Made by a program: the position numbers and the translations under genes. A DNA stretch of 32,665 nt, taken from assembly GCA_014378705.1 (NCBI GenBank), contig JACMND010000045.1, positions 1 through 32,665 on the forward strand, given 5' to 3'. Shown here one piece after another: positions 11,911-22,619 of this stretch (position 1 is its first letter; the number at the start of each line of letters is the position of its first letter). The DNA is from Pedobacter sp. (GTDB taxonomy: Bacteria > Bacteroidota > Bacteroidia > Sphingobacteriales > Sphingobacteriaceae). The notes under the pieces are model-generated. The model saw only the letters and a program-made list of their open reading frames with translations. It ran no database searches and had not been told where the DNA came from.

Positions 11911-13620
11911 TTAAGAAATGGGAAGTAAAAATCCAAAACGGCTTCCTTCTCCAAGGGCACTTTCAACAAATATTTCCCCGTGCTGAGCATCAATAAAATC
12001 TTTAGAAATAGCTAATCCTAAGCCAGTACCTGATTTCTGCTCGCCATTTGTAGGTACTTGAAAGTACCTTTCAAATAAATGTTTTTGATATTTATCTTCA
12101 ATGCCGTTCCCAAAATCTTTAACAGAAAATTCCACAAACTGATCTTTCTGTGTAATTTTTATAATCAACTTAGATTTTTCTGAGCTGTAACGTAGCGCAT
12201 TTGACAAAAAATTAACCAGGACCCAGGCAGTTTTTTCTATATCAGCTTGTACATCGGGTAAGTCGGGATCAACTTCAACTTTTAAGGCTATTGATTTTTG
12301 CTCTGCCTGAAATTTAACGGAGTTTATGGCATAGTTAATAATGTCAATTGGTTTTGCTGCCTTAAAACTTAACTGGATATTCCCTGTTTCCACCTGGGCT
12401 AAATCAAGTAATTCACCGGTTATTTTCAAGAGTCGGCTGGCATCGTCATTAATATTTTGTATCAGTTGACCTTGTTCTTCATTAACTGACCCAATTCTTT
12501 GATCCTGGAGCAACTTGAGACTTAATTTTATTGATGCAATTGGAGTTTTTAGTTCATGAGAAATGGTAGCAATAAAATTTGTTTTAGCTTCGTCCAGTTC
12601 ATGAAAACTAGTTACGTTTTTAAGAACAATTACCTCCCCAATTACCTGTTCTTTAGATTTTACTTCAATTACATCTTTCGCAAAATAGCTCTCTTTATTG
12701 TCAGCGTAAATTTTCAGTTGCTTCTTTTCTTTCTCAGTGAGTAAAGTTCGGAGCAGGTCATTATGCATAGCCATATCCGGCGCATAATTTCCTATCAGTT
12801 TTTGGGACGGAATACCTAAAAGTAAACTGGCAACAGGGTTAATAAATATGATTTGCTGCTTTTCATCAAGCCCGATGATGGCATCGCTCATTTGATCAAT
12901 AATGGTTTCTATTCTGCTTTTTTCAAAAAGGATTTTGGCAAGGTTACTATTTTCGTAATCATCTAACTTGCGTGCCATGGTATTAAACGCTGTTGATAGA
13001 TCGCCAAATTCATCATTGGACTGAAACTCCAGGCGCTGTTTATAATTTTTATTTGCGATAGCTTTAATACCCTCTGTAAGTTTCTGGATGGGGTTGGCAA
13101 TGTAGCTCGGAAAGTTTATCATAAAACTAAAGCCTACAAGCAGGCACAACGTAGCAATGGATAATAAATATAAAGTAGCACTTTTAACAGTGTTTAAAAC
13201 AATTGTATTTTTACTAAATATGGCCTGCATGTTTAGAACATCCACTTTACTAATTGCCTTTTTTATTTCCAGCTTTGATTGTGCAATTTGATCCGGATTC
13301 GTGTTTCTTTCTATTATTTGGTTAAATTCATCACGGATAATACGGGTTTGTTCTGCCTCTCCAACTTCAGTGATGTTTTGTTCCTGCGATTTTAAATTTC
13401 TTTCAAAGGCTTTAATATCGCTTTCATCCAGGCGCAAACGATCGTTATCAATTGCATCGGCCATATTGTGAGTGTACTGTAAACTCTCATAGTTATCTTT
13501 TAAAACCGCATTCGCATCTGCCGAAAGGCGATTAAGATAATAAGTAGCCATGATGCATACAATCAGTGTCAAACCGAATAGTAAGCCTAAACCCAGACGT
13601 AATTTTAATTTAATTCTCAT
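11911..13620 (-). CDS. Sensor histidine kinase (HAMP-PAS) of the Kdp locus
   Basis: Likely the kinase half of a split KdpD. It has two transmembrane segments (about residues 8-28 and 145-167) around a roughly 115-residue helical periplasmic part, then HAMP (about 168-225), PAS (about 236-340), HisKA with phospho-acceptor His355 (ATISHELKTPIASIK), and HATPase (about 455-569: NFLSNALRYSS, DFGNGIEDKY, GTGLGLAISKDF). The usual KdpD has four membrane helices (DUF4118) and GAF instead, so this is not the normal fusion. It starts 52 bp after the KdpD N-part gene in the same direction. In the family the kinase signals K+ limitation; here the partner is probably the NtrC-type regulator at 21285-22619 (inferred from position). 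Confidence 0.93.
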   Translation of the reverse strand: MRIKLKLRLGLGLLFGLTLIVCIMATYYLNRLSADANAVLKDNYESLQYTHNMADAIDNDRLRLDESDIKAFERNLKSQEQNITEVGEAEQTRIIRDEFNQIIERNTNPDQIAQSKLEIKKAISKVDVLNMQAIFSKNTIVLNTVKSATLYLLSIATLCLLVGFSFMINFPSYIANPIQKLTEGIKAIANKNYKQRLEFQSNDEFGDLSTAFNTMARKLDDYENSNLAKILFEKSRIETIIDQMSDAIIGLDEKQQIIFINPVASLLLGIPSQKLIGNYAPDMAMHNDLLRTLLTEKEKKQLKIYADNKESYFAKDVIEVKSKEQVIGEVIVLKNVTSFHELDEAKTNFIATISHELKTPIASIKLSLKLLQDQRIGSVNEEQGQLIQNINDDASRLLKITGELLDLAQVETGNIQLSFKAAKPIDIINYAINSVKFQAEQKSIALKVEVDPDLPDVQADIEKTAWVLVNFLSNALRYSSEKSKLIIKITQKDQFVEFSVKDFGNGIEDKYQKHLFERYFQVPTNGEQKSGTGLGLAISKDFIDAQHGEIFVESALGEGSRFGFLLPIS

Positions 13621-13672
13621 TTAAATGAATGTTGAGTATTCCATACGCGTTTTGAAAAAGTTGTTTCATAAA

Positions 13673-14797
13673 TCAGGATAGAATGACCAAATCTATGTTA
13701 GAAGATGAAAGTTTTTTTAATAGCTGATTGAATATAGCTGTGCTCAGTATTACTTTAAATAAACCCAGGTGCGGCTTGCCTATGCAAATTGTTGTAATTT
13801 CTTTTTGTTCTGCGGTTTCGATTATAGCTTTGGCAATATTCTCATTTTTAATTTTTAAAACTTCCCCGCCCAGTTCAGTAGCCAATTTTAAATTGTTGAT
13901 TAAATGCCTTTGTTTATTCAGCTTAATCCGATTTCCACCTTCGCGGCTGGTTTGAACATACAAAACACTCCATTTGGAATTATAGTATGATGCCAAACGG
14001 GCAGTTTTGCGAATCACAACCTTTGCAGTTTCTTCATTAGAACTGATGCAGGCTAAAAATTTTTCGCTTCTTAGTTTAATACTTCTCGGGACTTCAATAT
14101 CTACCTTGCGTTCCACCTGATGGGCCACTTCTTTCAACGCAAGTTCCCTGAGCTGAAGGATCTTTTCCGGCTGGAAAAAGTTGCCCAGGGCCATGGCAAT
14201 TTTTGATTCATGGTATATTTTGCCATCCCTTAAACGGGTTATGAGTTCATCCGCAGTTAAATCAATATTCACTACCTCATCGGCCATATCCAGTATTTTA
14301 TCCGGTATCCGCTCTGTAATGGGTATTCTTGTGATCTTTTCAACATCTTCATTTAAACTTTCAAGATGCTGAATATTAACAGCGCTAATCACATTGATGC
14401 CTGCATTGAGTATATCTACTACGTCCTGCCAGCGTTTGTCATTTTTGCTTCCTTCTATATTGGTGTGTGCCAGTTCATCTACAATTACCACTTCGGGGTG
14501 AGTGTTAATAATGGCCTGTACATCCATTTCCTCAAGTTGTTTTCCCTTGTAAAAAAGTTTTCTTCTGGGTATGGCAGGCAAGCCATGTATCAATGCTTCC
14601 GTTTCGGCCCTGCCATGCGTTTCTATGTAGCCTATTTTTAAATCAATACCGTTTCTTAATAACGTATGAGCTTCCTGAAGCATCCGAAAAGTTTTACCTA
14701 CACCGGCACTCATGCCAATGTAAATTTTAAACTTACCCTTCCTGTTTTTTTGTATAAGATTTAGAAATCTTTCCGCGGATTCAGTATTAACTGTCAT
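13673..14797 (-). CDS. kdpD: KdpD N-terminal/Usp protein (sensor part without kinase)
   Basis: This 374-residue protein holds only the cytoplasmic N-terminal part of KdpD. The KdpD domain (about residues 20-230) has a Walker A loop GMSAGVGKT (28-36) and Walker B VVIVDELAHTN, plus KDVIGYIETHG-like and HRW features around KRWQDVVDIL; residues about 245-374 are a universal-stress-protein-like domain ending in IDLVILS. It ends where the membrane and kinase parts of E. coli KdpD would start. I prefer the ATG at 14797; an upstream GTG at 14836 would add 13 residues and lies only 11 bp from a hairpin. The kinase gene follows after 52 bp. Split KdpD is seen in other Bacteroidota from memory. Domain call is secure. 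Confidence 0.92.
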   Translation of the reverse strand: MTVNTESAERFLNLIQKNRKGKFKIYIGMSAGVGKTFRMLQEAHTLLRNGIDLKIGYIETHGRAETEALIHGLPAIPRRKLFYKGKQLEEMDVQAIINTHPEVVIVDELAHTNIEGSKNDKRWQDVVDILNAGINVISAVNIQHLESLNEDVEKITRIPITERIPDKILDMADEVVNIDLTADELITRLRDGKIYHESKIAMALGNFFQPEKILQLRELALKEVAHQVERKVDIEVPRSIKLRSEKFLACISSNEETAKVVIRKTARLASYYNSKWSVLYVQTSREGGNRIKLNKQRHLINNLKLATELGGEVLKIKNENIAKAIIETAEQKEITTICIGKPHLGLFKVILSTAIFNQLLKKLSSSNIDLVILS

Positions 14798-14847
14798 TGT
14801 TTGTTTTAAGTTATACTTTAATTTGAGGTCGCCCACTTTTTCATAAG

Positions 14848-14888: not shown

Positions 14889-15962
14889 TTAAAAACTTAC
14901 CGCTACTGCCGTAGTAATAGCTGAATTATTATTGGTTGAAGAACCACTTTCACGGGTAAAAATCGCATCCTTACTATCATATATTTTGCCTTCCAACCGG
15001 AACGTAATGTTTTGATAAGGGCTGTAATCCACATTTGCTGAATATCCCCATGTTTTAAATCCGTTGGGAGTTCCGCTTGATATGATGACGCCGTTCTCGT
15101 CGCTATAATATTCTGCACGACCAGCCAGCGAAACTTTTGCTGAGGGCTTGTAACGAAGGATACCTGTAGGAGAATACCAGGTATTATAATCATTTGATTT
15201 TTTTGACTTTTGCTCGATACCCGCATCAAATCCTAAAATTAATCCAACTTTTTGGTTTAATTGGAATATCCCATACAGGTTATGAAAATAACGGTACTGA
15301 CGGCTTATCTCTGGTTTATCATTACCGATAAAAGTACTGGAATTGAGTGTTACTGAGGCCGTAGGTTTATAGGTTATTTGTGTTCCAAAAGCGGTAGACT
15401 GGTTACCGTCAACGCGTTGAATTCGCTGCCAGCCGTTCAAAACCAATCCCGAAAGGAATAATTTACTATCTGCTGAAGTGTAGCTGATTTTCGCACCGGC
15501 TTCGTAATAAGGTGAGTTTTCTGCAGCAATGCTTCGCGTTAGTGTCCAGTTATCTTTACCAATTGCACTTTCCCACCCAATATGAGCAGCAAAAATACCG
15601 GCATCCAACCATAAGTTTGAATTCTTGCTCAGTTTAACCCCGGCATTGGCTTCGTATAAATTCCGGAATACATCACTTTCTGCCGCAAGATTATATTGGG
15701 CATAAGTGCCTACCATTAAACCCAGATTTGCACGAACATTATCTGTAGCATAAGCAGCCTTTAATAAGCCGAGGTTTAGATTAATCTCATTATTTCTGGT
15801 GTGATTATAAGTAAATGAAGGGCGTAGATTATTTACTGGTTTGCTGAAATCATAAGCATAGTATCCTTCTACATAACCTGATATGGTAAGCGGATTTGTT
15901 TGCGCATTTACTGCCAAAGTTGTAAAGGCAGTTAATGCTGCTATTATTGTTGTTCTTTTCAT
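14889..15962 (-). CDS. Outer-membrane porin-like beta-barrel protein in Kdp operon
   Basis: A 357-residue barrel protein with signal peptide (MKRTTIIAALTAFTTLAVNAQ) and many amphipathic strands: SGYVEGYYAYDFSKP at the start, NEINLNLGLLKAAYAT, EANAGVKLS, VGLILGFDAGIEQ, and a closing ITTAVAVSF with terminal Phe as expected of an outer-membrane barrel. It resembles the Bacteroidota putative porin class (BBP2-like). It lies 71 bp after kdpC and before kdpD in the same direction, so it is probably co-expressed with the K+ pump and may help K+ through the outer membrane. That role is inference; the barrel fold is well supported. Confidence 0.85.
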   Translation of the reverse strand: MKRTTIIAALTAFTTLAVNAQTNPLTISGYVEGYYAYDFSKPVNNLRPSFTYNHTRNNEINLNLGLLKAAYATDNVRANLGLMVGTYAQYNLAAESDVFRNLYEANAGVKLSKNSNLWLDAGIFAAHIGWESAIGKDNWTLTRSIAAENSPYYEAGAKISYTSADSKLFLSGLVLNGWQRIQRVDGNQSTAFGTQITYKPTASVTLNSSTFIGNDKPEISRQYRYFHNLYGIFQLNQKVGLILGFDAGIEQKSKKSNDYNTWYSPTGILRYKPSAKVSLAGRAEYYSDENGVIISSGTPNGFKTWGYSANVDYSPYQNITFRLEGKIYDSKDAIFTRESGSSTNNNSAITTAVAVSF

Positions 15963-16033: not shown

Positions 16034-16585
16034 TTATAATTCGTCTAATGCAATGTTGAGTTTCAAAATATGTACTACTTCTGGTCCCATAAAGGGTTTT
16101 TCAGTGTACTGATCAACCAATTGTGTTAATTTTTCGCTGCTGACATTCCGAATTTTCGCAATCCGTGCAATCTGTATTTTGGCTCCTTTCGGCGATAAAT
16201 GAGGGTCAAGGCCTGAACCTGAAGCGGTTACAAGCTCTACAGGAATCTGACTGGTTTTCACATCCGGATTATGAACTAGGAACGTATCAATACGGGCCTG
16301 AACTTCTTTCAGGTAATCAGGGTTTGAAGGCCCTTTGTTAGAACCTGCCGAACCTGCCGCATTGTAAGCCACCGCCGAAGGGCGTGAGTTGAAATAACGG
16401 TCTTCTGTAAATGACTGTCCCAGTTTTTCATAGCCTATCACTTTGCCATTCTTTTGAATGGTTTCGCCTTTTCCCTGGCCGGGAGCTGCTTTAGCAATGG
16501 CCCAGATTATTGTGGGATACACCACACAAAATACGACGATGCAGATGACTGTGAGGCGCAATGCCGGTAAAATATATTGTTTCAT
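16034..16585 (-). CDS. kdpC: K+-transporting ATPase subunit C
   Basis: Subunit of the KdpFABC high-affinity K+ pump. The protein has one N-terminal membrane helix (about residues 8-30) and a periplasmic body with family motifs: GYEKLGQSFTEDRYFNSRPSA (shortened here to the RYFNSRPSA core), SNKGPSNPDYL, and the C-terminal SGSGLDPHLSPKGA...QIARIAKIRN. At 183 aa it agrees with the family. It follows kdpB after 65 bp, which contains a small bulged hairpin (16614-16640). Secure. Confidence 0.95.
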   Translation of the reverse strand: MKQYILPALRLTVICIVVFCVVYPTIIWAIAKAAPGQGKGETIQKNGKVIGYEKLGQSFTEDRYFNSRPSAVAYNAAGSAGSNKGPSNPDYLKEVQARIDTFLVHNPDVKTSQIPVELVTASGSGLDPHLSPKGAKIQIARIAKIRNVSSEKLTQLVDQYTEKPFMGPEVVHILKLNIALDEL

Positions 16586-16650: not shown

Positions 16651-18693
16651 TTAAATAACTAGTGTAATGATCATGTCAATAAGCTTGATGCCGATAAATG
16701 GCACAATCACACCGCCTAAACCGTAGATCAGCAGGTTCCTGCGTAATAATGCACTCGCCCCGATCGGCTTATAACTCACTCCCCTTAAAGCAAGCGGAAT
16801 CAGGATCGGGATGATGATGGCATTAAAAATAATTGCCGAAAGTATCGCACTCTCCGGACTGCTTAACCTCATGATATTCAATCCTTGTAAGGCCGGAATT
16901 GACGCAATGAACAAAGCAGGGACAATGGCAAAATATTTAGCCACGTCATTGGCGATAGAGAAAGTAGTAAGGGTACCACGAGTCATTAATAATTGTTTTC
17001 CAATCTCAACAATCTCAATCAGCTTAGTCGGGTCGTTGTCCAGATCAACCATATTACCGGCTTCTTTAGCTGCCGCGGTACCACTGTTCATCGCAACCCC
17101 AACATCTGCCTGGGCCAGTGCAGGAGCATCATTTGTTCCGTCGCCCATCATCGCCACCAATTTACCCTGTGCCTGCTCGTTTTTAATGTAGTTCATTTTA
17201 TCTTCGGGTTTTGCTTCCGCGATAAAATCATCCACGCCGGCTTTTTCAGCAATATATTTAGCGGTAAGCGGATTATCCCCGGTGACCATTACCGTTTTAA
17301 CGCCCATTTTACGCAAACGCTCAAAACGCTCCTGAATCCCCGGTTTGATAATATCCTGCAATTCGATGACTCCTAAGGCTAAATCATTTTCAGAAACAAC
17401 TAAAGGTGTTCCGCCGTTAGATGCAATCGCTTTAACCTGCTCTTCAATATCTGACGGAAACTTATTTCCGGCCTTTAAAACCATATTACGTATAGAATCA
17501 AATGCTCCTTTACGTATTCTTGAACCTTCAGGAGTATCAATACCACTAGAACGGGTTTCGGCCGTAAATTTTATAAACGTTGATCCGGCAAGAATTTTGA
17601 AATTTGCATTTGGATCCTGGATTTTTGCCAGTTCGATAATTGATTTACCTTCGGGTGTTTCATCAGAAATGGAACTCAGCACGCAAGCCTCTATAAAACG
17701 CCTGGAATCTATTCCTGAACTTTCATAAAAATTGGTGGCTTTACGGTTTCCGATAGTAATAGTACCTGTTTTATCCAGTAACAAAACATCCAGATCGCCA
17801 GCTGTTTCTACAGCCTTACCTGATTTAGTAATTACGTTTGCCTGCAACGCCCGATCCATTCCAGCAATTCCAATGGCTGATAATAATCCGCCAATAGTTG
17901 TTGGGATTAAGCAAACAAAAAGAGAAATAAATGAAGCGATGGTTATTGGTGTATTTGCATAATCTGCAAATGGCTTTAAAGTGATACATACAATGATGAA
18001 TACGAGTGTAAAGCCAGCTAATAAAATAGTTAAAGCAATTTCATTGGGCGTTTTCTGACGGGATGCACCTTCTACCAATGCAATCATTTTATCTAAAAAA
18101 CTTTCACCGGGTTGAGTGGTTACGATTACTCTTATTTCGTCAGAAAGTACTTTTGTGCCACCAGTAACGGATGATTTATCACCTCCTGATTCTCGTATTA
18201 CCGGTGCAGACTCACCCGTTATGGCGCTTTCATCAATGGTAGCGATGCCTTCAACAATCTCTCCGTCTGTAGGAATGATATCTCCGGTTTCGCATAAAAA
18301 AATATCGCCTTTTTTTAACGTGCTTGACGAACGCATTTCAATAGAACCATTTTCCAGAACAATCTTTGCAGGTGTTTCTTCCCTGGTTTTACGCAAACTG
18401 TTGGCCTGTGCTTTACCTCTTGCTTCGGCAATAGCCTCGGCAAAATTGGCAAACAATAGGGTTAAAAATAGAATAAGGAATACGGCAAGATTATAACCAA
18501 AGCTTCCCTGGCTTCTATCTGTGATTGAGAATAATGTAACAACCAGCATAATAGCAGTGCTGATCTCTACGCAAAACATAACCGGATTGCGGAACATTAT
18601 TTTCGGGTTCAGCTTAACGAAGGATTGCTGTAAAGCCTCTCTTACCAGATCGCCCTGAAACAAATTTTGATTTTTAGTATTTTGACTGCTCAT
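16651..18693 (-). CDS. kdpB: K+-transporting ATPase subunit B (P-type ATPase)
   Basis: Energises potassium uptake by ATP hydrolysis. The P-type ATPase pieces are all present: TGES loop in the actuator domain ([12 protein letters not shown]), phosphorylated Asp307 in [11 protein letters not shown], nucleotide-binding [15 protein letters not shown] and the hinge [18 protein letters not shown]. Membrane segments lie at the start (about 36-58 and 66-88), around 220-275, and at the end (about 580-680). Length of 680 aa matches E. coli KdpB (682). The start is 13 bp after the kdpA stop codon, so the two are tightly linked. Secure. Confidence 0.97.
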
Positions 18694-18706: not shown

Positions 18707-20422
18707 TTAATAGATGGAGAAATATTCTGCTATTGGTCCCAGAGTTAAAGCCGGGAAAAATGAAAGAGCAGTAATAATTAAGATGACCGCAAAAATCATT
18801 AATCCGAAAGTAGATGTATCGGTTTTTAACGTACCGGCACTTTCTGGAATGTGCTTTTTACTGGCTAATAAACCAGCAATAGCCAGCGGACCAATTATTG
18901 GAATAAACCTTCCCAGAAGCAGAACTATCCCTGTTGAAATATTCCACCATGGTGTATTATCGCCTAAGCCTTCAAATCCAGAGCCGTTGTTCGCGGCTGA
19001 TGAAGTGAACTCATACAACATCTCTGAAAACCCATGAAATCCCGGATTATTCAGCCATGCGATATCTTTTAAATTAGTAATACCGTAAGCTGATAATGAC
19101 GTGCCTACCAGAATTAAAAATGGATGAAAAAGCGCAACGATCATGGCAATCTTTATTTCGCGGGCTTCAATTTTCTTACCCATAAACTCCGGTGTACGGC
19201 CAACCATTAAGCCCGAAATAAACACAGCGATGATGATAAAAACGTAGAAATTAAGTATTCCTACACCGCAGCCACCATAAAATGCATTGGTCATCATCGC
19301 CAGCATTTGCATCATTCCAGTTATCGGCATGGTACTGTCGTGCATTGAATTAACCGAGCCCGTTGAAATAACTGTAGTACCAATACTCCAGTAAGCTGAA
19401 GCCGGAACTCCGATTCGCATTTCCTTACCTTCCATAGCGCCAGAACTCTGGTCTATACCCATCTTCTGAATTTGGGGATTTCCCTGAATTTCAGAATAAA
19501 TAGCCGGAATGGTTAGTAAAAGGAAGCCAATGGTCATTACACCAAAGATCATCCATGATAATTTTCTGCGCTTGAGGTAAAAGCCTAAAGCGAAAACCAT
19601 AGCCAGCGGAATGATCATTTGCGCCATTATCTCAACCGTATTGGTTAAAAAATTTGGATTTTCCAATGGATGGGCTGAGTTAGCGCCAAAATATCCTCCA
19701 CCGTTTGTACCTACATGTTTAATGGCGATCATCGCGGCAGCCGGCCCTCTGGAAACATTTACGGTATCGCCCTGCACAGAAATAAATTGATCCTTGCCTT
19801 CAAAGTTCATTGGTGTACCGTTAAATACCAGAACTACTGCAACCAAAATTGAAATAGGAAGTAATATCCTTGTAAGAGATTTTACAAAATAATTGTAAAA
19901 ATTACCTAAACCTCTTAAGCCTTTCTGGACAGTAGCGGAGTTTGGAGTGAGGCTTTTAAACACCAATGCGGCAGCGGCCAAACCGGTTGCGGCTGATACA
20001 AACTGAAGAAAAGTAACAAATGCAATTTGGTTTAAATACGACATTCCAGTTTCGCCAGAATAGTGCTGCAGATTACAGTTTACCAGAAAACTGATGGCAG
20101 TATTAAATGCTAAATTCGGCGACATGCTCGGGTTGCCGTCGGGGTTTAAAGGGAGCCAACCCTGGTTCATTAACAGGAACATGGCTACAAAAAACCAAAC
20201 CAAGTTAATAGTTAAAAGTGCGTATAAATGTTGCTTCCAGTTCATTTCGCGGCTAGCATCAACCCCGGTTATCCTAAAAATTAATTTATCAAGCGGATTG
20301 AAAATTGGATCAAGTAGCGTAGACTCTCCTTTATAAACCCTGGCAATATACCTTCCAAGCGGAATGGCGAGTAGAATGGTTACCAGGAAGGTTAATCCAA
20401 CACTTAAAATTTCAGTATTCAT
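18707..20422 (-). CDS. kdpA: K+-transporting ATPase subunit A (K+ channel-like)
   Basis: Binds and moves K+ across the inner membrane. The four pore-lining repeats are recognisable: [51 protein letters not shown], and a [14 protein letters not shown] region. At 571 aa it is a little longer than E. coli KdpA (557); extra residues sit between the second and third filter regions (about residues 320-350). The N-terminus [20 protein letters not shown] is closely copied by the 42-aa microprotein gene just upstream (stop 42 bp before this start). Ten or so membrane helices are expected. Secure. Confidence 0.97.
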
Positions 20423-20464
20423 TATTGTATTATTAAATTTTTTGGGTTAATTAATATCCAATTG

Positions 20465-20593
20465 TTAGATAAAAAGTGGTACAGATACATTGTAATGCTG
20501 CCTGTATGCGCTTAGAATATATTTTGCCAAAGGAATAGCCAGTAAAGTGGTAAGCAAACATGCCAGTCCGCCAAGTAATAATTCAGTTTTCAT
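20465..20593 (-). CDS. 42-aa microprotein resembling KdpA transmembrane helix 1
   Basis: Too short for normal gene callers; read from the DNA. ATG at 20593, one base after the kdpF stop (TAA G ATG), stop at 20465. Ungapped comparison with KdpA residues 1-31 gives 17 identical residues: M1, T3, E4, L6, G9, L10, L13, T15, the block LLAIPL (17-22), Y25, I26 and Y30. After residue 31 the two differ and this peptide ends in SVPLFI. One membrane helix (about 6-28) is expected. The DNA of the two is diverged at many third positions while the protein is kept, which suggests an old duplication under selection. It might bind KdpB/KdpA as KdpF does, or regulate kdpA translation. The role is unknown. Confidence 0.72.
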   Translation of the reverse strand: MKTELLLGGLACLLTTLLAIPLAKYILSAYRQHYNVSVPLFI

Positions 20594-20594
20594 C

Positions 20595-20672
20595 TTAAAA
20601 TTTTTCTGGTTTAATAAGGACATACACCATGTAAATGAACACAGCTATGCCGATAATTAATAATGCTGTCAT
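20595..20672 (-). CDS. kdpF: K+-transporting ATPase subunit F
   Basis: A 25-residue single-helix protein, read from the DNA: starts MTALLIIGIAVFIYMVYVLI and ends KPEKF. The pattern (one hydrophobic helix, then Lys-Pro-Glu) is that of KdpF, a small subunit that stabilises the KdpABC complex in the inner membrane. It starts 3 bp after the 27-aa gene and is followed after one base by the 42-aa gene. The order kdpF, kdpA, kdpB, kdpC is the standard one apart from the inserted microprotein. Confidence is high because position, size and tail agree. Confidence 0.85.
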   Translation of the reverse strand: MTALLIIGIAVFIYMVYVLIKPEKF

Positions 20673-20675
20673 GAT

Positions 20676-20759
20676 TTAAAATTTTTCAAAGTAATTAACC
20701 GATTTGTATAAAAGCCAGAAGCAAAATGCAGCCAGCAGGATTAAAAGGATTGTTTCCAT
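20676..20759 (-). CDS. 27-aa single-helix membrane microprotein
   Basis: Read from the DNA: ATG at 20759, stop at 20676. The peptide starts METILLILLAAFCFWLLY and ends VNYFEKF, i.e. one hydrophobic helix with a short positively charged tail. It starts 17 bp after the 118-aa gene and stops 3 bp before kdpF. Its last codons (GAAAAATTTTAA) are the same as those of kdpF, so it may be a diverged KdpF copy. I know no named family. Tight packing in the operon supports that it is translated. Confidence 0.6.
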   Translation of the reverse strand: METILLILLAAFCFWLLYKSVNYFEKF

Positions 20760-20776
20760 ATTTAATTAGTTTTTTG

Positions 20777-21133
20777 TTACCATTTGTCCATGTTAATTGA
20801 GTAGCGGTACTGACTTAATAAATGTCCTGTAAGTAAGGTTTGAAACGGATAATTTTGTACTTTTTCCGGCTTAAGCATTGGATAGATACGGATAAGAAAT
20901 TGTGCTGTTAAAACTGACTTAACAAGTCTGGAACCGTTTACCATAAACTGTTCTGCTAATAGAAAGCATTTTTGAACACCTTCCACACTTCCTTTTTCTA
21001 TCAATTTCGCTGTGTACATTGTCAGTAATTTTATTCCGGAGATACAATCCGTGCTGTTTAGGCTATAACCATCATTCTTAATTTCTGGAACTTCAATTTT
21101 CAGAAGTTCACAGATTTGTTCGTCATAAATCAT
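20777..21133 (-). CDS. Hypothetical helical protein, first gene of the Kdp operon, 118 aa
   Basis: I do not recognise it with certainty. The 118 residues look all-helical and cytoplasmic, with no signal peptide or membrane helix: LLTMYTAKLIEKGSVEGVQK then CFLLAEQFMVNG and AQFLIRIYPML. The pattern of a helix, a KGSVEGVQKCF turn and a following helix reminds me of the small Bacteroidota family labelled DUF7674, but this is from memory and weak. It is the first gene behind the candidate sigma-54 promoter and is 17 bp from the membrane microproteins, so it is probably co-expressed with kdpABC and could be a regulator or adaptor. The ATG is 26 bp downstream of the GC of that promoter. Confidence 0.75.
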   Translation of the reverse strand: MIYDEQICELLKIEVPEIKNDGYSLNSTDCISGIKLLTMYTAKLIEKGSVEGVQKCFLLAEQFMVNGSRLVKSVLTAQFLIRIYPMLKPEKVQNYPFQTLLTGHLLSQYRYSINMDKW

Positions 21134-21158
21134 ACGTATATTATTTTCTGGGCAATAG

Positions 21159-21172
21159 GCTAAGCAAATGCC
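21159..21172 (-). promoter_or_regulatory. Candidate sigma-54 promoter of the Kdp operon
   Basis: Minus strand CGGCATTTGCTTAGCC has GG (21172-21171) and GC (21160-21159) with exactly 10 bases between, the invariant spacing of -24/-12 promoters. Flanking matches to TGGCAC and TTGC are partial (CGGCAT, TAGC). Predicted start near 21148, 15 bp before the 118-aa gene. It sits right after a terminator and downstream of a sigma-54 activator gene. Confidence 0.4.
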
Positions 21173-21173
21173 G

Positions 21174-21208
21174 AAAAATAAAAAAAGCCTTAAAAGTTAA
21201 TTCAAGGC
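21174..21208 (-). terminator. Intrinsic terminator behind the sigma-54 activator gene
   Basis: Minus strand: stem GCCTTGAA/TTTAAGGC (8 bp with one G-U), 6-nt loop, then seven T, an A and more T. It ends transcription from the regulator gene and separates it from the Kdp operon. The plus strand also has a T5 run, but no gene feeds it from that side. Confidence 0.75.
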
Positions 21209-21251
21209 AGTTTTTATACTCGTAAAAAAAATTTTAGAAAAGAAACCTTTC

Positions 21252-21279
21252 CATTTTGACATGGCGGATTTTCAAAATG
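21252..21279. promoter_or_regulatory. Palindrome, candidate enhancer site of the activator
   Basis: CATTTTGA and TCAAAATG form 8-bp perfect arms with a 12-bp spacer. The centre (21265.5) is about 117 bp upstream of the predicted sigma-54 start, the usual distance of an upstream activator site. It lies 5 bp after the activator stop codon; no T run follows, so a terminator role is unlikely. Confidence 0.4.
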
Positions 21280-21284
21280 AAAAA

Positions 21285-22619
21285 TTAAGTTAACTTATAT
21301 TCTTCAATTTTTCGATACAAAGTGGTTAGGCCAATGTTCAAAAGCCGGGCAGCTTCCGTTTTATTCCCCTTAGTATAATGCAACACCTTTTGGATGTGGA
21401 TTTTTTCTGCAGTTGCCAGATCCATTTGATTAAAAGATTCTGTAGTTATGTGAAATTCTATTGGTAATAGATTGGCATTTAAAGTATTCTCATCTGAAAG
21501 GATGACGGCTCGTTCGATGTTATTTTTCAATTCACGTACATTTCCTTTCCAGGGATGCCGACTAATTTTGATTAAAAACTCCTTATCCATTTCGGTTACC
21601 TGCCGGTTAGTTTTGTGGGAGAATTCGCGAAGGTAGTGCTTCGCCAGGATTTCAATGTCTCCCGAACGTTCCCTTAATGCAGGCAGTTTAATGGCGAAAA
21701 CAGATAAACGATAATACAAATCTGAACGGAAAGACCCTTTTTCTATTTCCAGACTTAGATCTCGGTTGGTAGCTGCAATAATCCGCACATCCGATTTAAT
21801 GGTTTTGGTATCTCCCAATTTAATAAATTCACCGCTTTCTAAAATCCGTAGCAATTTGGCCTGTAGGTCCAGACTCATTTCACCGATTTCGTCCAAAAAT
21901 ATGGTTCCGCCTTCTGCTTCTTCCCAAAGTCCTTTTTTATCTTTCAAAGCGCCGGTAAAAGCACCGGCCTTATATCCAAATAATTCACTTTCCAGGATTT
22001 CTCTGGAGAAAGAGCTACAGTTAACCGCAACAAAAGACCGCGACTGGCGATTGCTTTCCTGATGTATTGAATGAGCAAAAACCTCTTTTCCGGTTCCGGT
22101 TTCACCCAATAATAAAACAGTTGTTGCGGTAGTTGCAACCCTCTTGGCCATATTTATGGCTTCTTTTATCGCTGCCGACTCCCCAATGATACTGTCTAAG
22201 CTGAACTGCTGGTGCAATTTCTTCTCAAGCCGTAAAATCTTGTGCTGCAAAAATGATTTGTCGATAGCTTTGCTTACTAATGGAATGATCTTATCATTAT
22301 CGTCTCCTTTGGTGATGTAATCAAATGCCCCGTTTTTAATGGCTTTCACACCATCTTCAATGGTGCCAAAAGCGGTTAGCACAATAATTTCGATAGCCGG
22401 AAATTTCGCCTTTATCTGTTTGGTAAGTTCTACCCCGTTTCCGTCGGGCAGTTTAACATCACTTAAAACCAGGCTGATGTCTTCATTTTCAAGAATCTTC
22501 CATGCTGACTTAATATTTTCGGCCTCCCAAATTTGATATCCTTCTAATTGTAAAATGCGGCCCAACAATTGGCGTAGCTTATTCTCGTCATCGATGATCA
22601 GTATGGATGGTTGGCTCAT
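21285..22619 (-). CDS. Sigma-54-dependent response regulator, NtrC family
   Basis: A 444-residue enhancer-binding activator. Receiver domain (about residues 4-120) with phospho-acceptor Asp54 in LSDVKLPDGNG; AAA+ domain (about 143-380) with Walker A LLGETGTGKE, the sigma-54 contact motif GAFTGA (in AGAFTGALKDK), Walker B GGTIFLDEIGEM and sensor RIIAATNRDL; Fis-type helix-turn-helix at the end (about 405-444: YTKGNKTEAARLLNIGLTTL). It is directly upstream of the Kdp operon and there is no OmpR-type KdpE in the locus, so it is probably the response regulator for the KdpD/kinase pair (inference). A terminator follows its stop codon. Family is secure. Confidence 0.95.
   Translation of the reverse strand: MSQPSILIIDDENKLRQLLGRILQLEGYQIWEAENIKSAWKILENEDISLVLSDVKLPDGNGVELTKQIKAKFPAIEIIVLTAFGTIEDGVKAIKNGAFDYITKGDDNDKIIPLVSKAIDKSFLQHKILRLEKKLHQQFSLDSIIGESAAIKEAINMAKRVATTATTVLLLGETGTGKEVFAHSIHQESNRQSRSFVAVNCSSFSREILESELFGYKAGAFTGALKDKKGLWEEAEGGTIFLDEIGEMSLDLQAKLLRILESGEFIKLGDTKTIKSDVRIIAATNRDLSLEIEKGSFRSDLYYRLSVFAIKLPALRERSGDIEILAKHYLREFSHKTNRQVTEMDKEFLIKISRHPWKGNVRELKNNIERAVILSDENTLNANLLPIEFHITTESFNQMDLATAEKIHIQKVLHYTKGNKTEAARLLNIGLTTLYRKIEEYKLT

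Follow-up and report, generated by a model that had tools for sequence, protein, structure and literature searches.

The ORF described here lies in a kdp operon, and the systems closest to it are two subunits of the KdpFABC pump and the MicroProteins. MicroProteins that originate from partial gene duplication have been described mainly in eukaryotes. Within the pump, KdpF (PF09604/TIGR02115) is a one-helix subunit, and KdpF and KdpC have been suggested to be structural chaperones (PMC12629597). KdpA (PF03814) has ten transmembrane helices, eight of which form four TM-P-TM pore repeats, according to PMC6255902.

The 42-aa peptide predicted from the ORF resembles KdpF in being tiny, in having a single hydrophobic helix and in being encoded by an adjacent gene of the same operon, and it probably has the same topology. 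On the other hand, it derives from KdpA, has no KdpF match and was found in two species only. With the N-terminal helix of KdpA it shares in-register homology over residues 1–41, but it ends after helix 1 and contains neither the pore repeats nor the selectivity filter nor a Pfam match of its own. Like the MicroProteins, it is a truncated paralogue of a complex subunit that could act on its parent; unlike them, it would represent a bacterial membrane case, in which action on KdpA is a candidate idea. No description of a KdpA-derived small protein was recognised in a full-text literature search that was judged by titles and abstract beginnings and had most of the subscription literature outside its range. 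The same search found no description of a bacterial membrane MicroProtein originating from partial duplication, which says little.

The kdp operon and the KdpA-like ORF

The whole stretch of DNA analysed (hereafter, the window) comprises 32,665 nucleotides of contig JACMND010000045.1 from the Pedobacter sp. assembly GCA_014378705.1. It carries a kdp operon that looks complete, with the gene order kdpF, kdpA, kdpB, kdpC, BBP2 porin, KdpD sensor-domain protein, and separate histidine kinase. The features relevant to the analysis are as follows:

16034..16585, minus strand: kdpC (Pfam KdpC, E 3.7e-66)
16651..18693, minus strand: kdpB (Pfam E1-E2_ATPase and Hydrolase; named from its place between kdpA and kdpC)
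18707..20422, minus strand: kdpA, parent of the copy, 571 aa (Pfam KdpA, E 3.7e-229; NCBIfam kdpA equivalog)
20435..20451, minus strand: part of the ORF-kdpA spacer that may be left over from the kdpF 3' end (ATTAACCCA-AAAAATTT versus ATTAAACCAGAAAAATTT; shuffle p 0.023)
20465..20593, minus strand: 42-codon ORF, a drifted copy of KdpA residues 1–41 (MKTELLLGGLACLLTTLLAIPLAKYILSAYRQHYNVSVPLFI; from translation, own-genome search, codon comparison and shuffles)
20595..20672, minus strand: kdpF, 25 aa (Pfam Potass_KdpF, E 3.6e-8; TIGR02115)
20676..20759, minus strand: 27-aa ORF with one helix, preceding kdpF and separate from the duplication (METILLILLAAFCFWLLYKSVNYFEKF; from recurrence in Bacteroidota kdp loci)

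The 42-codon ORF extends from an ATG at 20593 to a TAA stop ending at 20465 on the minus strand and encodes 42 aa. As the preliminary description had stated, it begins one base after kdpF, whose stop ends at 20595. The start of kdpA (20422) is located 42 nt past the ORF stop. From one start codon to the other the distance is 171 bp (57 codons), which keeps both in one frame, with two stops intervening. Translation and ungapped alignment bore out the reported identity to KdpA at 17 of 31 N-terminal residues, and 19 of 41 residues are identical overall. The divergence supposed to begin beyond residue 31 was not confirmed: the register with KdpA persists to residue 41 (VPLF in the ORF versus DPIF in KdpA), where the copy of Daejeonella oryzae reads TVSDPLF. 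The BLOSUM62 score of this alignment was 87, a value reached by none of 100,000 shuffles of the peptide (best shuffle 32), and a protein search of the own genome with E values up to 10 returned only the ORF itself and kdpA (E 4.5e-5, 46% identity, residues 1–41). Common ancestry of the peptide and KdpA is thus clearly indicated by sequence comparison. Third positions do differ widely, as had been noted, with 14, 14, and 23 differences between the ORF and its own kdpA at codon positions 1, 2, and 3 of 41 codons.

The maximum hydropathy over 19 residues is 2.25 in the peptide (residues 5–23) and 2.35 in the first helix of KdpA. No Pfam or NCBIfam family matched the peptide. It therefore has neither the Pfam KdpA match with four pore repeats that would assign it to KdpA nor the PF09604 or TIGR02115 match that would assign it to KdpF; the kdpF gene is the adjoining ORF at 20595–20672.

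Several other properties of the locus were recorded. A gene for a BBP2 (OmpL-like) outer-membrane porin (14889–15962, minus strand) separates kdpC from the KdpD gene, and D. oryzae has at this place an ORF that is likewise 357 aa long. KdpD is split (11911–14836, minus strand): its sensor domain is found in a protein of 387 aa, and a HAMP/PAS histidine kinase of 569 aa is encoded separately. Upstream of the operon, a response regulator of the sigma-54 activator (NtrC) type is encoded (21285–22619, minus strand). A search for sigma-54 promoters prompted by this regulator gave 7 loose matches in the window versus 13.9 expected, none directly before the kdp genes, and a promoter and terminator scan revealed 8 and 1 sites, respectively, versus 5.6 and 0.9 expected. 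A gene for a DUF7674 protein (20777–21133, minus strand) is located directly upstream of the small ORFs of the kdp locus. Similarly placed ORFs of its size were found in the D. oryzae, Sphingobacterium, and Flavobacterium loci, the likeness being one of size and place.

Distribution among relatives

To describe the distribution of the insert, 600 bp upstream of kdpA (or less where the sequence was shorter) was compared with the KdpA N-terminus of the same locus. The comparison comprised 84 rows (the window, 80 named loci, and three others); since L113, one of these three, repeats L032, they represent 83 distinct kdpA loci. A KdpA-like insert was present in 2 of them, the window species and D. 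oryzae. The window scored 87 (best of 100 shuffles 43), and D. oryzae scored 50, with a best of 100 shuffles of 51 in one row and 36 in the repeat row and a 95th value of 32–33. Locus L049 came next with 44 (best of 100 shuffles 42), the matching stretch being its own KdpF. Locus L108 holds only 80 bp upstream of kdpA and could not have shown an insert.

A search with the peptide in 301 genomes of the family and 395 of the class revealed no second free-standing copy beside kdpA, the query being so weak that the broken D. oryzae copy was not reported either. Short-frame hits (<100 aa) in six other genomes of the family were rejected as chance matches or as lying away from kdpA: those in G061, G191, and G074 (L008, L017, and L018) and in G111 (L117) have no KdpA gene nearby, and those in G288 and G257 are on contigs other than that of kdpA. 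A profile of the KdpA N-terminus (alignment A1) had matches in 316 of 400 genomes of the order; as this profile contains the 42-aa peptide itself, its E value for the window ORF is not evidence. The first pass was confined to the best matches, and the second covered the 44 genomes that had at least two matches (42 plus G000 and G077). Among these 44, no short-frame copy was found beside kdpA except those of the window and, in broken form, of D. oryzae (G077, E 8.9e-4). Short-frame matches of the profile in G330, G357, and G273 were again on contigs other than that of kdpA.

An apparent cut-off KdpA N-terminus in G348 was rejected as a copy, being part of one kdpA gene split by about 1.45 kb across contig ends. 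Residues 1–27 of this second kdpA of G348 (L119, 1486–1566) run up to the last bases of the contig, and residues 24–570 (L118, 1456–3069) start about 1.45 kb from its beginning; the gene has perhaps been interrupted by an insertion.

Among plasmids, 465 records contained KdpA, all with less than 60% identity, and no free-standing copy was annotated in the one plasmid kdp region inspected. In the genus of the window species, 4 of 20 genomes have kdpA. Across the loci and genomes searched, no further free-standing copy was found, and the 42-codon ORF is, judging from these sequences, not a widely conserved subunit.

Origin of the ORF

The closest named relative is D. oryzae DSM 19973 (locus L032), whose KdpA is 88% identical and whose contig is also that of G077, a genome from the genus of the window species. 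It carries an orthologous insert between kdpF and kdpA (L032, 4836–4957) with the same end, PLFI followed by a stop. A net deletion of 7 bp breaks its frame, giving MNHNFLLAGLTLTAIWLFP-stop, and the remainder (LAIPLIRRILKIYVRKNTVSDPLFI-stop) is in another frame. The next closest locus, L033 (KdpA 81% identical), has no insert, and its kdpF stop is 12 bp before kdpA. The sequence that separates the ORF from kdpA is similar to the 3' end of kdpF in the window (shuffle p 0.023) as well as in D. oryzae (0.0185), a weak and only suggestive indication of a kdpF remnant.

The shared insert, its absence from L033, and the likeness of the spacer to kdpF are explained by a tandem duplication in a common ancestor of the window species and D. 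oryzae, covering about 171 bp from the kdpF end to roughly codon 41 of kdpA. This proposal rests on the in-register homology and on position, and we infer the exact ends. The upstream copy would have kept a kdpA-like start one base past kdpF and then run into a stop, leaving a 42-aa ORF in the operon. In D. oryzae, the frame would have been lost recently, or the assembly may contain an error at that spot.

The preliminary description had taken the absence of an intact frame from homologues as grounds for rejecting the ORF as a gene. The comparison was divided on this point: the frame is intact in the window and broken in D. oryzae, that is, in one of the two species with the sequence and in the only relative that has it (1/1). 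The KdpA origin and the hint of selection proposed there were supported, but a conserved intact frame among relatives was not found.

Selection on the ORF

The ORF copies of the window and D. oryzae can be aligned over 34 codons, or 39 if the gaps are placed differently. In the 34-codon alignment, 9, 11, and 22 codons differ at positions 1, 2, and 3, respectively (Fisher p 0.0012); in the 39-codon alignment, the numbers are 11, 11, and 26 (p 1.2e-4). For residues 1–41 of kdpA, the corresponding values are 4, 3, and 18 of 41 codons. Fourfold sites of the two species differ at 139/229 (0.61) in kdpA and 170/287 (0.59) in kdpB, i.e., by about 60%, so that third positions of the ORF diverge as expected under neutrality, and first and second positions (20/68) well below this. 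This is a codon-position signature of purifying selection, obtained from a small sample (34–39 codons of two species) with near-saturated synonymous sites.

With t fixed from kdpA and kdpB, omega was 0.30 (0.19–0.43) for the ORF, 0.05 for kdpA residues 1–41, 0.01 for kdpF, and 0.036 for kdpA and kdpB together. As a first branch test on five sequences ended with lengths at the bounds, later tests took their lengths from kdpA and kdpB or from kdpA alone; free branch lengths gave omega estimates at or near the bounds. With kdpA lengths, the window branch had an omega of 0.38 and the D. oryzae branch one of 0.13, and omega = 1 was rejected for the former (p 0.0012 or 0.0005). The omega values of the ORF depend on the fixed branch lengths, as synonymous sites are close to saturation. 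The lowest value (0.13) belongs to the lineage with the broken frame, which makes sense only if the frame broke very recently, the sequence is in error, or the estimate is unreliable. The third-position excess and an omega of about 0.3 with the neutral distance fixed uphold the suggested hint of selection; they point to some coding constraint, and its direction is to be trusted more than its size.

The explanation that we tentatively prefer, at slightly under even confidence, is that the ORF encodes a young one-helix microprotein, restricted to this lineage and subject to relaxed purifying selection; it would probably act at the Kdp pump and would have been lost recently, or mis-sequenced, in D. 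oryzae. After the duplication, the ORF would have been kept as a putative translated one-helix membrane peptide, for which the codon-position bias is the support. For some time, selection seems to have retained this drifted copy of the first KdpA helix.

Alternative explanations

The main rival, nearly as likely as the preferred explanation and in itself quite possible, is that the ORF is a duplication fossil, a functionless truncated copy of kdpA whose frame has stayed open by chance in the window species and has already been disrupted in D. oryzae. It agrees with the broken frame in one of two species, with the lack of any other copy in the searched loci and genomes, and with a divergence of the ORF far above that of kdpA residues 1–41 (9, 11, and 22 of 34 versus 4, 3, and 18 of 41 codons). 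Residues that are near-invariant in KdpA (alignment A1) have also been lost from the peptide: F12, G23, L37, and D38 in the window, and E4, G23, Y25, and L37 in D. oryzae, where the position of F12 falls inside a gap. Since these losses are partial and differ in part between the species, the peptide is not a strict copy of KdpA's helix function.

Controls with five spacers compared between the two species were mixed. The 42-nt spacer between the ORF and kdpA is 75% identical in the window and D. oryzae, and the four short spacers (12–40 aligned bases) differed at 0.27, 0.24, 0.17, and 0.25 of sites versus 0.38, 0.30, 0.42, and 0.40 in shuffled DNA, the last being the ORF-kdpA spacer. Because short spacers nearby are thus partly conserved too, conserved DNA alone is no proof of coding, and weight was placed on codon periodicity. 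Against a functionless copy, the longest spacer tested (kdpC-porin, 65 aligned bases) was no better than shuffled DNA (0.446 versus 0.448), and the ORF shows a third-position excess (p 0.0012 or 1.2e-4) and a low divergence at positions 1 and 2 (20/68 sites versus about 60% at fourfold sites).

It is improbable that the ORF is a translated leader, important only for the ribosomes on it, which would maintain the coupling of kdpA to kdpF or take the mRNA to the membrane, with no role for the peptide. The kdpA-like start of the ORF one base past kdpF, with kdpA now 42 nt beyond the ORF stop, would suit such a role, and leader ORFs adjoining genes are common in many bacteria, including Bacteroidetes (PMC4833913). 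However, 42 nt exceeds the distance peak of 10–11 bp, a figure that this source gives for Actinobacteria. Other Bacteroidota have kdpF-kdpA gaps of at least 100 nt in which no hydrophobic ORF was detected (e.g., L062, L073, and L077), and kdpA of D. oryzae is intact despite the early stop of its ORF copy. Conservation of the tail residues (VS.PLFI, with synonymous changes) would likewise be left unexplained.

An RNA element in place of the ORF was also rejected: the fold z-score was 0.09, giving no RNA-structure signal that would explain the conservation, and the single Rfam match in 20000–21400 was far below the gathering score and outside the ORF.

That two hydrophobic helices of separate origin are alike by chance is hardly credible: short hydrophobic segments are easily alike, as the KdpF stretch of L049 illustrates (44 versus a best shuffle of 42), but none of 100,000 shuffles reached the in-register score, the own-genome match to kdpA had an E value of 4.5e-5, and the position, start context, and D. 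oryzae copy all fit duplication.

Other small ORFs near kdpF

The 27-aa ORF before kdpF recurs far more widely than the KdpA-derived ORF. Relatives were found in 80 of 83 distinct kdp loci, or 80 of 82 assessable ones, as L108, one of the misses, has only 80 bp upstream. In L038, L041, L042, L048, L074, and L086, the ORF is several hundred bases further upstream. Recurrence was scored by the C-terminal pattern [FYW]-F-[ED]-[KNRQ]-[IFV], with a few looser matches; the conservation of the C-terminus is therefore partly by construction. Less dependent on the pattern are Leu at –21 in 65 and Phe at –13 in 63 of 66 unique peptides. Between the window and D. oryzae, omega of this ORF was 0.05 with t fixed and 0.27 with t free. 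No Pfam family above the cut-off and no NCBIfam family matched it, and it looks like an undescribed Kdp-linked microprotein.

Small ORFs near kdpF and kdpA, mostly with a basic start and one hydrophobic stretch (e.g., MKKDKIKKLVAFILTMLIVLSMLYIVYWKYKILFKH), were observed between the two genes in L052, L054, L058, L061, L071, L076, and L109, and upstream in L039, L044, L050, L065, L078, L104, and several Chryseobacterium loci. They possibly constitute one loose family.

Possible role and implications

The preferred explanation, a one-helix microprotein at the pump, leads to the following candidate role. Since eight of the ten KdpA helices belong to the four pore repeats, the helix of the peptide, corresponding to the first of KdpA, is probably an extra N-terminal one outside the pore core. 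Basic residues past the helix suggest, by the charge rule, an N-out, C-in topology for the 42-aa peptide. It may insert beside the Kdp complex as KdpF does and modulate the assembly or stability of KdpA. By analogy with KdpF and KdpC, we favour such an accessory peptide; it could instead be a decoy for the helix of KdpA itself. The link of the ORF to KdpFABC consists of operon position only.

A bolder proposal, which we consider rather unlikely, is that a duplicated first helix of a pump subunit became a separate one-helix subunit acting in trans on KdpFABC, and that the slot between kdpF and kdpA repeatedly yields small membrane peptides. Other one-helix ORFs, not KdpA-like, occur between kdpF and kdpA in 7 of 80 other distinct loci with a recognised kdpF.

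If the ORF is a fossil, it would warn against reading in-register similarity and wide third-position divergence of paralogues as sufficient evidence of a working gene. If it is translated and active, it would represent a bacterial membrane peptide that arose when part of its likely target was duplicated, observed at a young stage. Relatives at different stages (no insert, intact, and broken) would then allow tests of how one-helix pump subunits such as KdpF originate, and, if the duplicated helix does act in trans, new pump microproteins could arise from the pump itself.
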